From Mariniflexile gromovii (GTDB taxonomy: Bacteria > Bacteroidota > Bacteroidia > Flavobacteriales > Flavobacteriaceae): a DNA stretch of 64,000 nucleotides. The notes under the pieces were generated by a model. That model had not been told where the DNA came from. It made no database searches and saw only the letters and a list, made by a program, of their open reading frames with translations. Position 1 is the first letter of the stretch. Every line of letters starts with the position of its first letter. The position numbers and the translations under genes are program-made. Shown in pieces: positions 42,554 through 47,212 of the stretch. The stretch covers positions 310,001 through 374,000 of the forward strand of contig NZ_JAGJCB010000003.1 in NCBI RefSeq assembly GCF_017814435.1. Reading direction: 5' to 3'.

Positions 42554-43519
42554 ATGAAACTACAAACACAAATACCATTACAAAAACAGTCTAGCAATCT
42601 CATAGACTATAATTCTAACATACTACTGTTAGGGTCTTGTTTTGTTGAAAATATTGGGGAGAAGTTATCGTATTTCAAGTTTCAAAACCTTCAAAACCCG
42701 TTTGGTATTTTGTTTCAGCCTAAGGCTATTGAGACTTTAATTTCAAACGCTATTAATCATAGGGGATATTCAGAAAAAGACATCTTTTTTCATAATGAAC
42801 AATGGCATTGTTTTGAGGCGCATTCAAAATTAAGCAACCCTTCAAAAGATGTGTTGTTAAGTAATTTGAATGGAGCATTTGAAGCAACAAATCATCACAT
42901 CAACACATCAACCCACATCATCATTACTCTAGGAACTGCTTGGGGATATCGGTTTTTAGAATCGAATCAATTAGTTGCGAATTGCCATAAGGTGCCGCAA
43001 AAGCAGTTTGGTAAAGAGTTACTTTCGGTTGAAATAATTACATATTCTATAGAAGCCATTGTAGATTCCATTAAAAATGTAAACCCTAACGTTTCTATCA
43101 TTTTCACCGTTTCACCTGTGCGCCACATTAAAGATGGTTTTGTTGAAAATACACAGAGTAAGGCGCATTTAATTACTGCAATCCATCAGTTCTTAAATCG
43201 TCAATCGACAATCGACAATCGTCAATTATCATATTTTCCATCCTTTGAAATCATGATGGACGAACTTCGCGATTATCGTTTTTATGCTGAAGATATGTTG
43301 CATCCCAATCAAACAGCCATCCATTGCATTTGGGAAAAATTTCAAGAAGTTTGGATGTCATCGGAAGCAATAAAAACAATGAAAGTTGTAGAAGAAGTTC
43401 AAAAAGGGTTACAGCATAAACCTTTCAATCCAAATTCTGAAGCACATCAAAAATTTGTTTCAGTAATTAAAGAAAAGCAATTTCAGCTTCAAAAAATACA
43501 CCCTCATATCGTTTTTTAA
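42554..43519 (+). CDS. GSCFA domain protein (SGNH-like)
   Basis: The 321-residue protein carries the GSCFA hallmark near the N-terminus (LLLGSCFVENIGEKL, then NPFGILFQP) and a later TVSPVRHIKDG and MLHPNQ. GSCFA proteins resemble SGNH/GDSL hydrolases, but no substrate has been shown to my knowledge. There is no signal peptide. Residues about 216-227 (NRQSTIDNRQ) derive from a short tandem DNA repeat at 43198-43225 that looks inserted. The last four bases overlap the convergent AraC gene. Confidence 0.82.
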   Translation: MKLQTQIPLQKQSSNLIDYNSNILLLGSCFVENIGEKLSYFKFQNLQNPFGILFQPKAIETLISNAINHRGYSEKDIFFHNEQWHCFEAHSKLSNPSKDVLLSNLNGAFEATNHHINTSTHIIITLGTAWGYRFLESNQLVANCHKVPQKQFGKELLSVEIITYSIEAIVDSIKNVNPNVSIIFTVSPVRHIKDGFVENTQSKAHLITAIHQFLNRQSTIDNRQLSYFPSFEIMMDELRDYRFYAEDMLHPNQTAIHCIWEKFQEVWMSSEAIKTMKVVEEVQKGLQHKPFNPNSEAHQKFVSVIKEKQFQLQKIHPHIVF

Positions 43520-44697
43520 GCTCTAATGGTTTTTAAATAATCTTGAGGAGAATGACCTGTTACTTTTTTAAAGGCATTAAAAAACGGATTGTATGAGGCA
43601 AATCCTGTTTTGTATGCTAAAGACTCTAAAGTGTTTGTTCTTAAATAACCTTGTTCTATTAAATGGATGCTGTCCTTTATTCTAGAATGCATGCGGTATT
43701 CCGAAAAAGGGATGTTCGAGTGGTATTTAAACAAGTACACAATATGGCTTGTAGGCACGCCCAATTTATTGGCGATATCAGTCGGGGATGCTTTTGGGTT
43801 TCTAAAAATATGCTGTTCTATACTTAGTTTGTCCACTTCATGTATATAACTAACTATGTTAGACATTATTTTTTCTTGCAATTTTAAATCTTGATCACTT
43901 TTTTGGTTACTTATTTCTAAAATCCAATTATCATTTTTTAACAAATGGTTTTGTTCATTTTCTTCTGTAGGTAAACTGAATTTTAGTGTTTTTTTATTGA
44001 GAATAGGAAGTCCGTATAAAATTTCGGGTGCAGTTAAAATTTTAAAGTAAATAAATAACCAATATAGGAGCAGTAATACAGCCATCGATTTTCCTGAAGG
44101 GTTAGATCTTGAATGCATTTCAGAAAAAATGGAGACTAATAAGGTTATAACTGCTAATAGATTTTGTGTAAATAGCCAAATGGTCCAGTTTTTTACCAAG
44201 CTAAATTGTTTGTTATTTATAAGAAGGTCTTTTTTTAACCAAATGTTTTTTCTTAGAAGCTTAAAAATTAATGTTAAATAGAAAAGTATAAAGAAACCTA
44301 TTAGAATAAAATTAATTATGTCTCGAAATTGAAATAGAAGCCTCTCTTTAATAAATGAGTTAATGTTAATAAAGTATAAAAATCCTATAAAAATAAAGTG
44401 CTTTAAATCTCTAATATTATAGGTGTTATTCTCCTCAAGTACCAAATTTTTGTAATACAAATAAAAACAGGGCACTACAGTAAGATAAAATACGGAATAT
44501 ATACCTTGATCTGGAGAAAAATAATCTTGTAAACCCAACTTAAAGCTACCATGAATTAGAAAGCGAATAGAAATTATGCTAATAATTACTAATAAGAAAA
44601 AATTATAAAAGGGGTTCGATTTATAAGAAGTAATCATTATGGCGATGGTTACTATGCCAACAATGCCCGTAAATAAAAATAAAAATGATTCTAGCAC
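43516..44697 (-). CDS. Membrane-bound AraC-family regulator
   Basis: The first 220 of its 393 residues hold about seven hydrophobic helices, followed by a linker and a C-terminal AraC domain (ASPTDIANKLGVPTSHIVYLF, then LESLAYKTGFASYNPFFNAF and VTGHSPQDYL). This 7TM-AraC layout is common in Flavobacteriaceae and places the DNA-binding domain on the cytosolic side of the inner membrane. Its signal and target are unknown. It is convergent with the GSCFA gene and divergent from the small-RNA pair at 44772 and 45119. Confidence 0.88.
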   Translation of the reverse strand: MLESFLFLFTGIVGIVTIAIMITSYKSNPFYNFFLLVIISIISIRFLIHGSFKLGLQDYFSPDQGIYSVFYLTVVPCFYLYYKNLVLEENNTYNIRDLKHFIFIGFLYFININSFIKERLLFQFRDIINFILIGFFILFYLTLIFKLLRKNIWLKKDLLINNKQFSLVKNWTIWLFTQNLLAVITLLVSIFSEMHSRSNPSGKSMAVLLLLYWLFIYFKILTAPEILYGLPILNKKTLKFSLPTEENEQNHLLKNDNWILEISNQKSDQDLKLQEKIMSNIVSYIHEVDKLSIEQHIFRNPKASPTDIANKLGVPTSHIVYLFKYHSNIPFSEYRMHSRIKDSIHLIEQGYLRTNTLESLAYKTGFASYNPFFNAFKKVTGHSPQDYLKTIRA

Positions 44698-44771
44698 TTA
44701 GTATAAGAGAGTTTACTGCAAAAATAACAAATAACCTTTGGCATTTATTTAATTTTTTGTAAATTATAGTA

Positions 44772-44862
44772 GAGTTTGAATAATTGAGGGGCATTATTTT
44801 TATGAAGAAACTCTAAACATTGTAGAAAAGGTTGTTCTTATTTAGAGCAGCCTTTTTGTTTT
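44772..44862 (+). ncRNA. Candidate small RNA, copy 1, with own terminator
   Basis: An outer stem GAGTTT/AAACTC (44772-44777 with 44808-44813) encloses an inner stem AATAAT/ATTATT (44779-44784 with 44793-44798) with a GAGGGGC loop. A terminator hairpin follows (44826-44837 with 44845-44856) plus T-run. Upstream, TTG (44738-44740), 19 bp, then TAAATTAT (44760-44767) looks like a Bacteroidetes promoter placing the start near 44772. Copy 2 at 45119 has the same architecture with paired changes in both stems, which supports a selected RNA structure. No open frame is present. The 604-bp gap 44698-45301 holds nothing else I can name. Confidence 0.65.
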
Positions 44863-45118
44863 AATAAGATTTATCAAACAACTTATGTGTATTTGTGTGA
44901 AAAATAATATTTATGGCTTTTTAGATATTTTTACCTTAAAATTTCAAGTTTACTGAATTGCTCAAATTCTTATTGATTTACTAAAATTCAATTTCTAAAT
45001 TGTTGGTTGTCGATATTTTATATGTTTTTATCGCTATGTTTACATTGCTATTATTAATGAATCTTTATTATAGTGTACTCTATATTATATAGAGATTTTG
45101 TTTATGTATTTTGTGTTA

Positions 45119-45208
45119 GAATCAAATTATTGAGGGCAATAATTTTAAAGAAGTGATTCTGATGTTTTTAGCAAAGGCTGACTTAATTAAGTACAGCCTT
45201 TTCTTTTT
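45119..45208 (+). ncRNA. Candidate small RNA, copy 2, with own terminator
   Basis: The same plan as copy 1: outer stem GAATCA/TGATTC (45119-45124 with 45154-45159), inner stem AATTATT/AATAATT (45125-45131 with 45138-45144) capped by GAGGGC, a shared GAAG just before the outer 3' strand, then terminator AAAGGCTG/CAGCCTTT (45173-45180 with 45194-45201) and T-run. Both stems differ from copy 1 by compensatory pairs. A weak -7-like TATTTTG sits at 45107-45113, and a 7-bp palindrome lies at 45078-45094. It could be a free RNA or a leader attenuator of the gene at 45302. Confidence 0.65.
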
Positions 45209-45301
45209 CTATTTTCCTAAAATATACGTAATTCATCGTATTGATTTCATTTTGTTGAAGTTGCAAATTTGTGATTCTATTAATCATAAACAAAATCAAC
45301 A

Positions 45302-47212
45302 ATGAGAAAATTAAGCCAATTTGTATTACTGCTAGTAGGGATTATGGTTGTAAACATAACTACCGCCCAAAAAGCCGAAACACCACAAAACACATATGAT
45401 TTAGGGGCAAATATTAACGAAATGACACTTACAATAGGCGGCATATTAATTGCCGCAACTAATGAAGGATTAGTGGGTATAGACCCAAAACAAAGTGCCC
45501 CTGTTTTTACTTTTAACAACTTTGGGAAGTTAAAACCAGAAGAAACCGATTTTATTCCAGCATCACCATACATTGTGGTGTCGCAAGGAGCCGATTCCAA
45601 GTTTGCAGGACTTGCCAAAACAAAAAGGGCTGTTATAAACTACATCACAGGAAAAGTCATTTTCAATTCTGAAACCGATAATTGGAATCAAATTTATACC
45701 TGTAACATTGTATTGCCACAAAACAAATTGATAGTGAGCGGCATTCAAAAAGAAGGTGATAAGTTCGAAAAAATGACGCCAAAAGTAGCAGTGTACGATT
45801 TAAGCACACAAAAACTAGACTATAGTTTCTTTTTAGATAAACCAGGTAGAGTAGGTATCGCAAAAGATTTTAGTGTAACAGGTGTGCCTTTACTACTTAA
45901 AAGCATGTTAATTATACCAACCGCCCAAGGGTTAATTGCAAAATCGCATAAAGGTGATGATTTATGGGAGTGTAAAATTAAGGGCATTAACTGGATGGTT
46001 TCAGATGAAACTGAAAAGGAAATATACGGTTTTGAAACTACCACAAATGGAAAAAACACACGCATCCATAAAATAGGAAGCAACGGCGCAGAACTTTGGA
46101 AAGATGATAGAAAAGTACAAGGAAATGTGTCTAATTTTCAAATATTGCCACAAGGTTTAGCTGTGGTAAGCGATAAAAGTTCTGGAGGAAGTACAAGTGT
46201 GTTTGCCACTAGCGATGAGTCTGAAATTGCTTTCCTTAGCGCTTCAACAGGTGAAGATTTATGGGAGAAAGCCCCTAAAACAAAAGGTTATGTACAGCAT
46301 TTTTATGTTCAAGATGATGGGATTTTGTTCGGTATTCAGCAAGGAGGTATCAACAAAATTTCATTTGACGGAAAAACTTTGTTCAAAAAACCATTAAAAA
46401 CCGGTGAGAATATAATGGTTATGGCAGAATCGCCACAGGGTTTAATCTATATAACCAGTGAAGATGCCAATATTGTAGATTTAAAAACAGGCGATCAAGT
46501 ATGGAATAAGCCATTAAAATATAAAAATTCGGCAGCGGTAGCTTCAACTTTTGATAGCACTAAAAATAGGTATTTAATTGCTGCAGATGGAGAAATTTTT
46601 GCCATTGATGCTAACTCTGGAGATGTAACCGATTTTGCAAAAGTAAAGTTTGATGAAAAAGAAGTTGCAAATACCATGCAAATGCGAAATGGTAACATCT
46701 TTTTAAGTTCTTCTCAAAACTTAGCGTTATTGGAAAGTAACGGAAATGAAGTGTACCAAGGGTATTTCAAATCGCCTTCACAAAGTGGTTTTGTAAAAGT
46801 GCTTTCTGGAGCATTGGCAGTAGCATCAACAGGTTTGGCTATGGCGCATGCAGCTAAAGCAGGTATGAATAGAACCAATAGCTATGGAAGCGCTAACGAT
46901 TTAAGTAATTATAACGATTATGGTAAAGAAAACAAACGTGCTGCCGATATGTTTGCTTCTATTGGTGATGCTGCTTTTGATGTAATGTCAAAACGCTTTA
47001 AAGCAACAGCGGCTACCGAAAATGCACAATTTATTTTAACAAAGCTTGATGCTGGTGTTGGCTTGGTTAAAGTGAACAAAGATACCGGTAAAGTAGATAA
47101 AGAAATTGTACTAAAAGATAAAAAACCAGAATACCAAGTAGATGAGATTGCAGGTGTTTTATATTACAAAGCCAACGATAAAACAATATATGCTTATAAT
47201 CTTCAAAAATAA
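45302..47212 (+). CDS. PQQ-like beta-propeller repeat protein, exported
   Basis: The 636-residue protein has a signal peptide (ending TTAQ) and repeated strand patterns of the quinoprotein/WD type, each ending in a W-K or W-E-K motif (GKVIFNSETDNW, GDDLWECKIKG, GEDLWEKAPK, GDQVWNKPLK). These indicate an eight-bladed PQQ-like propeller without the cofactor residues of true dehydrogenases. A short Ala/Ser-rich segment near 505-560 interrupts the last blades. It is probably periplasmic, with a scaffold or binding role. It follows the two small-RNA candidates and ends in a strong terminator. Confidence 0.75.
   Translation: MRKLSQFVLLLVGIMVVNITTAQKAETPQNTYDLGANINEMTLTIGGILIAATNEGLVGIDPKQSAPVFTFNNFGKLKPEETDFIPASPYIVVSQGADSKFAGLAKTKRAVINYITGKVIFNSETDNWNQIYTCNIVLPQNKLIVSGIQKEGDKFEKMTPKVAVYDLSTQKLDYSFFLDKPGRVGIAKDFSVTGVPLLLKSMLIIPTAQGLIAKSHKGDDLWECKIKGINWMVSDETEKEIYGFETTTNGKNTRIHKIGSNGAELWKDDRKVQGNVSNFQILPQGLAVVSDKSSGGSTSVFATSDESEIAFLSASTGEDLWEKAPKTKGYVQHFYVQDDGILFGIQQGGINKISFDGKTLFKKPLKTGENIMVMAESPQGLIYITSEDANIVDLKTGDQVWNKPLKYKNSAAVASTFDSTKNRYLIAADGEIFAIDANSGDVTDFAKVKFDEKEVANTMQMRNGNIFLSSSQNLALLESNGNEVYQGYFKSPSQSGFVKVLSGALAVASTGLAMAHAAKAGMNRTNSYGSANDLSNYNDYGKENKRAADMFASIGDAAFDVMSKRFKATAATENAQFILTKLDAGVGLVKVNKDTGKVDKEIVLKDKKPEYQVDEIAGVLYYKANDKTIYAYNLQK

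Follow-up and report, generated by a model that had tools for sequence, protein, structure and literature searches.

The u1/u2 locus

Two paralogous units, u1 and u2, lie about 345 bp apart on the plus strand of the window (the whole 64-kb stretch of DNA analysed here), flanked by the divergent gene of an AraC-type regulator (43516-44697, minus strand) and by the gene of a PQQ-propeller protein (45302-47212). Unit u1 occupies 44770-44865, and u2 consists of a stem at 45113-45165 and a terminator reaching about 45205; in both, an outer stem encloses (A)TTGAGGG, a GAAG stands ahead of the 3' arm, and a terminator hairpin with a T-rich tail follows. The features of the locus are as follows.

43516-44697, minus strand: gene of the AraC-type regulator, 393 aa, GTG start, divergent from u1 and u2; orthologues found
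44719-44726, minus strand: -7-like box of the AraC gene, TATTTTTG, read by eye against the box consensus
44737-44767, plus strand: predicted u1 promoter, TTTG at 44737-44740, 19 nt, then TAAATTAT at 44760-44767; a consensus reading, significance not assessed
44770-44815, plus strand: u1 stem-loop, arms 44770-44777 and 44808-44815, TTGAGGG at 44784-44790, GAAG at 44804-44807; from sequence, fold and alignment
44825-44865, plus strand: u1 terminator hairpin and T-rich tail; from the fold
44950-44978, plus strand: direct repeat with a 20-bp period, TTACTGAAT...TTATTGATT, a putative site for the AraC-type protein; from pattern and model searches
45035-45042, plus strand: -7-like box of the u2 promoter, TATGTTTA, at a near-constant distance from the direct repeat
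45078-45094, plus strand: u2 5' hairpin, CTCTAT / ATAGAG; from sequence
45113-45165, plus strand: u2 stem-loop, arms 45113-45124 and 45154-45165, TTGAGGG at 45130-45136, GAAG at 45150-45153; from the alignment
45170-45210, plus strand: u2 terminator hairpin and T-rich tail; from the fold

The AraC-type protein has an HTH_18 domain at residues 308-389, and its five hydropathy peaks, all inside residues 5-223, are read as membrane spans; the start of its mRNA is predicted near 44714. The regulator locus, the T9SS operon found at this place in relatives and the promoter that u2 shares with that operon, all described below, were missed by the first-pass annotation of this DNA.

Fold and predicted starts of u1 and u2

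The first-pass annotation had recognised two similar plus-strand units with an outer stem, a G-rich loop, a GAAG and a T-tailed terminator, and this much was borne out, the folding of the whole units going beyond that of dinucleotide shuffles (z of -2.56 and -2.37, with 3 of 200 shuffles equal in each case). The outer stem that it put at 6 bp is real but longer, comprising 12 bp in u2 (several of them G-U) and 8 bp in u1. The 5' hairpin of u2 has, by eye, identical letters in the genomes G005, G162, G359 and G449 and is absent from some copies.

A promoter ending at the stem had also been proposed for u1. This is plausible, as a housekeeping-type promoter predicts a start at 44772 when the consensus TAnnTTTG is placed at -12 to -5 (as given in the available text of PMC9723704), and in G001 and G004 a box like this one lies before u1. 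A promoter of the same kind is not supported for u2, the promoter of which is of a different, repeat-box type, is conserved, and lies ~70 nt farther upstream; the 5' end of u2 is therefore likelier to be near 45047 than at 45119, and the predicted RNA (about 45047-45205) would be ~160 nt in length. An SM5-type box, TATTTTGT (45107-45114; the SM5 motif is TAnnTTGY in the part of PMC9723704 available), stands just 5' of the u2 stem and would give the start at 45119. We ranked this start below 45047 because paired changes link stem positions 45114-45115 to the bases opposite them, which argues that both are transcribed and that the u2 RNA should begin upstream of them. At the level of sequence, each unit appears to possess what a structured bacterial small RNA gene should have, namely its own promoter, recognised by the promoter model for u2 and by consensus reading alone for u1, and its own intrinsic terminator.

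Selection on the outer stem

Covarying homologues, the lack of which would have counted against a structured RNA, were found in relatives, and nine sequences from six genomes were aligned: the window's genome (G000), four others of its genus (G001, G003, G004 and G005) and G089. The main helix of the outer stem is paired in 98.9% of the cells, and changes on both sides occur at five of its 11 pairs (five of 12 if the closing pair is counted). For the complete structure with its terminator, covariation scored 0.233, against 0.180 in the shuffles, two of 500 of which reached it, and it dropped to ≤ 0.079 once the stem arms were slid. The number of paired cells was matched by 4 of 500 shuffles and that of cells changed on both sides by none of 500; no clear excess was seen in the number of both-sided pairs, which 49 of 500 shuffles reached, or in that of pair types, reached by 298 of 500. 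Three of the five covariation measures for the outer stem are therefore beyond nearly all shuffles and two are not. On this comparison of sequences, the outer RNA stem is under selection, kept through paired changes in homologues.

The paired changes had been claimed for an inner stem of 6-7 bp as well, and here the claim was not supported: 75.5% of the cells of the inner stem are paired, against 73.4% in the shuffles, with no excess covariation. Kept in the loop of the six clear genomes are UUGAGGG (UUGGGGG in u2 of G001) and GAAG, and the variants UUUAGGA and UAAUGGGGG are found in G077 and G185, respectively.

The u2 promoter and the AraC-type regulator

The u2 promoter consists of a direct repeat, the 20-bp unit of which is TTAYTGATTnnnnTAAATnn, followed by TTTTTATnnnTATGTTTAC at a spacing that is near-constant across 20 aligned sites, and the same arrangement precedes the surface-protein operon in relatives. 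Searched with up to three mismatches, the repeat pattern was found at 10 places in seven of eight genomes, nine of them being these promoters; the tenth, in G001 and by eye 5' of a gldL-like gene, is probably a chance match. The pattern had zero matches in G002, a genome of the same genus that lacks the AraC gene, and a reversed-pattern control gave one match, in G000.

A promoter sequence model built from the 20 sites was then searched in 37 genomes, 17 with the AraC gene and 20 without. It returned 22 sites at E ≤ 6e-7 (20 of them training sites), covering all 17 AraC-bearing genomes, and no strong site in the 20 that lack it, where the best E was 1.8e-4; weaker matches, with E as high as 0.05, were seen with and without the gene. 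Eleven of the 22 strong sites stand before this RNA (six before clear and five before diverged copies), ten before the operon and one, in G183, before neither. Of the two sites outside the training set, that on a separate contig of G449 (C30) has the RNA directly downstream and that in G328 the operon. In the window's genome, the sole match at E ≤ 0.05 is the u2 promoter. As expected of an AraC-controlled RNA, a conserved site of the u2 type stands at a fixed place upstream of the RNA and is confined, among the 37 genomes searched, to those bearing the regulator. It is probable, from these co-occurrences, that the AraC-type protein switches u2 on, and the direct repeat at 44950-44978 is probably its binding site, a putative assignment based on co-occurrence.

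G089 carries, elsewhere in the genome (L084, G089:C1:2551416-2552540), a second and distant AraC-type paralogue with 35% identity; the promoter model matches once in G089, at u2.

Distribution of the regulator and of the RNA

Within the family, 15 of 397 genomes have the AraC-type protein at E ≤ 1e-50, and 11 of these, G000 included, have it at E ≤ 1e-130. Among 395 genomes drawn from the order, three have it (E ≤ 1e-90), all belonging to the same family and G000 being one of them, and among 60 genomes around G162 it is found in five (E ≤ 1e-100), all of one genus. Within the genus of the window's genome, represented here also by G001 to G005, the gene is absent from G002 at E ≤ 1e-40, as is any RNA match at E ≤ 0.1, and neither the AraC gene nor the RNA was seen at the corresponding place in M. 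maritimum (L034).

A DNA search of 60 relatives included five further genomes of the genus, four of which (G001, G003, G004 and G005) matched the region of the units strongly; in G002 there were weak matches only, and the one examined (L012) was unrelated. Both u1 and u2 are present in G001 and G004, u2 and a decayed u1 in G003, and u2 only in G005. With the RNA model R1, the two units of G000 score 97.8 and 76.4 bits and the clear members in G001, G003, G004, G005 and G089 score 65.8-102.6 bits. Diverged copies score 39.7 bits in G077 and, for a second form of the RNA in G449, G359, G185 and G162, 28.1-32.9 bits; since terminator-only matches elsewhere score 30.0-38.1 bits, the diverged copies are little or no better by score, and they were assigned to this RNA because they stand directly behind the promoter and have a G-rich loop and a terminator of the same type. 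The loop of the second form is TGAGGGG in three copies and TGGGGG in G185 (TTAGGA in G077). All four second-form copies have the 5' hairpin, shorter in G185, and by eye three of the four have the stem ATTATC/GATAAT, which was not found in G185. In total, the RNA was recognised behind the promoter in 11 of the 17 AraC genomes; G134, G183, G328 and G448 gave no unit above 25 bits in the stretches examined, and the G447 stretch is too short to judge.

In a scan of the family with R1, 26 of 397 genomes matched at E ≤ 0.1 (29 loci), five with the AraC gene (G000, G003, G077, G089 and G359) and 21 without it. The 22 loci in the 21 AraC-less genomes were rejected as members: at the coordinates given by R1, each of the 22 runs out in a terminator-like hairpin and none has the G-rich loop, and 21 lack the direct repeat, the repeat-like match at the remaining locus (L124) sitting after the R1 match and not before it. 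The scan gives a lower bound because its strict filters gave no match in G162, G185 and G135, which, judging by another draw of equal size, were among the genomes scanned and in which units were found in local stretches. All 11 genomes with a recognised RNA carry the AraC-type gene, a co-occurrence weakened by the fact that the RNA was sought mostly beside AraC genes, the searches beyond those loci being the DNA search of 60 genomes and the R1 scan of 397.

The surface-protein operon in relatives

In G001, G077 and G359 the gene order is AraC gene (minus strand), operon, RNA. The operon encodes a small T9SS-sorted protein, an outer-membrane barrel, a larger and often repetitive protein (1401 aa in G001, 1779 aa in G077 and 501 aa in G359) and a further surface-type protein, which is a beta-helix in G001 and laminin-G-like in G077. 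The operon loci, with the repeat-box promoter also seen at u2 (L095, 3009-10537; L096, 2504-11630; L141) are variable between species. G003 has both ends of the arrangement of AraC gene, operon and RNA, split over two contigs. There is no operon between the AraC gene and u2 in G000, G004, G005 and G089, where AraC gene, promoter and RNA are kept, and a genome search of these four with the promoter model found no second strong promoter of the u2 type.

In G003 and G135, a unit like u1 also closes the operon (L098, 8086-8175; L143, 4281-4370). In G003, the decayed u1 starts 12 nt past the stop codon of the last operon frame, and in G135, which has no promoter-borne copy, an R1 match of 38.6 bits overlaps the stop of the third operon frame; u1 may have originated as a piece of the operon's 3' untranslated region or have been absorbed into it.

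Comparison with known RNAs

The motif flavo-1 is a Bacteroidetes motif, and the first-pass annotation had suggested that the units might belong to it or to another known Bacteroidetes motif, or be new. Rfam 15 gave no match at the gathering threshold anywhere in the 64-kb window, and at E ≤ 10 the region of the units had four sub-threshold matches, none of them flavo-1; among the titles listed in a literature search of the library available, none concerned this RNA. We suggest that u1 and u2 represent a new small RNA family, although of a known kind.

The nearest design is that of InvR of Salmonella, which, in the available text of PMC11925239, is a small RNA under the AraC-like regulator HilD, encoded in a secretion-system accessory locus, with hilA and ompD as targets and with the hilA mRNA binding Hfq. 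Like InvR, u2 would be a locus-borne small RNA under an AraC-like regulator, the adjoining HTH_18 protein being encoded in the same locus as the RNA. From what that text describes, the present case differs in its phylum, in a regulator with membrane spans, in having two sister RNAs and in that Hfq was not found in G000. Rfp18 of Flavobacterium psychrophilum belongs to the same bacterial family as u1 and u2, and is described in the accessible part of PMC9723704 as a structured RNA with one stem-loop as predicted pairing region and secreted-protein targets, widely conserved in Flavobacterium. The likeness of u1 and u2 to Rfp18, and to other Rfp RNAs, is by that partial description alone, and in contrast to Rfp18 the RNA of the u1/u2 type is seen only in genomes with this AraC gene. 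The genes of another pair of small RNAs, OmrA and OmrB, are adjacent paralogues. The sections of PMC11925239 at hand place this pair in a feedback circuit, OmpR-CsgD-OmrA/B; as u1 and u2 are likewise paired but differ from it in sequence, regulator type and phylum, we draw an analogy of design only.

Proposed regulation, targets and alternatives

We consider it rather probable that the two units are sister small RNA genes in an accessory locus, u2 being controlled by the AraC-type protein and both acting in trans. On this reading, the regulator, with its membrane spans, would bind the direct repeat at 44950-44978 and activate the u2 promoter (TATGTTTA), yielding an RNA of ~160 nt in which a 5' hairpin is followed by a long stem that exposes UUGAGGG and then by a terminator, while u1 would be a shorter sister RNA made from its own housekeeping-type promoter. 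In relatives, the u2-type promoter would also drive the operon of T9SS-sorted and repetitive surface proteins that separates the RNAs from the regulator gene; in the window's genome, from which the operon has gone from that place, u2 would be the only recognisable target left. The G-rich loop would then pair with mRNAs in trans and tune the expression of envelope and surface genes while the regulator is active. Transcription, activation by the AraC-type protein, the start sites and the mode of base-pairing are all inferred here.

Pairing of the loop with a target is possible, and none of the candidate targets that we tried gained support. With the operon leaders, five tests in four genomes gave p values of 0.12-0.67, and a ranking of 52 genes of the window yielded no usable outlier; the AraC leader fell outside that ranking because the AraC gene was there taken from its first ATG (44637). 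As for protein partners, Hfq was not found in G000 (five of 14 control genomes match), CsrA had no match in G000 (three of 14 control genomes match) and RRM proteins were not found in G000 (two of 14 control genomes match). A stronger form of the proposal, in which a membrane AraC sensor has been left, after loss of the operon, with one small RNA as its only remaining output and works without Hfq, CsrA or RRM proteins, seems to us doubtful and is put forward tentatively. If true, a signal at the cell envelope would be turned directly into RNA regulation. To our knowledge, a controller is known for few small RNAs of Flavobacteriaceae; in the present case, sequence by itself links the RNA to a single candidate regulator and a single promoter, and the window's genome offers a simple setting for studying the signal sensed by a membrane AraC protein and the role of a small RNA where Hfq and CsrA are not found.

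Several other readings of the units have to be weighed against action in trans. They might be cis elements only, that is, operon terminators or 3'-UTR structures left behind after loss of the operon, which would agree with the decayed u1 of G003 and the R1 match of G135 at the operon stops, with the terminator being better conserved than the rest of the unit beyond the six clear genomes and with the weak R1 scores of the second form. We nevertheless regard this as unlikely, as u2 has a conserved promoter of its own even where the operon is missing (G000, G004, G005 and G089) and the stem ahead of the terminator changes in pairs. It is quite improbable that the RNAs feed back on their own regulator through base pairs between the G-rich loop and the predicted, pyrimidine-rich start of the AraC mRNA, which by its position was the foremost candidate target. 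The predicted leader does begin with AAAC or AAAT and a pyrimidine run in several genomes, and pairings of 10 bp in G089 and of 10 bp with one bulge in G003 can be drawn; these single-genome pairings, good alone, were rejected as evidence. Against shuffled leaders, only two of 13 loop tests reached p ≤ 0.05 (the G185 stretch being placed less exactly in these than in the species-matching test), and RNAs matched with the leader of their own species paired no better than mismatched ones, with p values of 0.86-0.95 over ten genomes and 0.19-0.39 within the six-genome clade for four choices of stretch. The 3' arm tested against the AraC start reached p ≤ 0.05 in one of 13 full-core tests (G185).

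A protein decoy of the CsrB type, acting through UUGAGGG and GAAG, is less probable still: in G000, G004 and G001 (where u2 differs by one letter) both RNAs of the genome do carry the G-rich motif, but it is present in two copies only, the loop differs between genera and CsrA, as noted, was not found in G000. Least probable of all, in our view, is that u2 serves as a tiny mRNA, its product being a very short peptide that would read MYFVLESNY in the window and MLLSVFLF(N/I)EGFNFD in Confluentibacter. Such a reading would account for the ATG seen by eye before or at the stem in nine of 11 copies, with the frame continuing into the loop; G001 and G089, however, have no frame, the lengths range over 9-19 codons, u1 has no frame ahead of the loop, and coding alone would leave the paired changes of the stem unexplained. 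The nine-codon frame MYFVLESNY lies at 45104-45133 of the window and ends in the TGA of TTGAGGG, and longer short-peptide frames were seen by eye in the Confluentibacter copies and in G077.

An inverted element upstream of the PQQ-propeller gene

A conserved inverted element, approximately ATACGnnwTTCrTCGTAT with variants, is located 5' of the PQQ-propeller gene at 45221-45247 of the window and is found in many genera. By eye, and uncounted, most of 17 loci compared have it ahead of this gene or of genes next to it; in several loci it is also found 5' of adjoining small-protein genes, and it occurs with or without the small RNAs.
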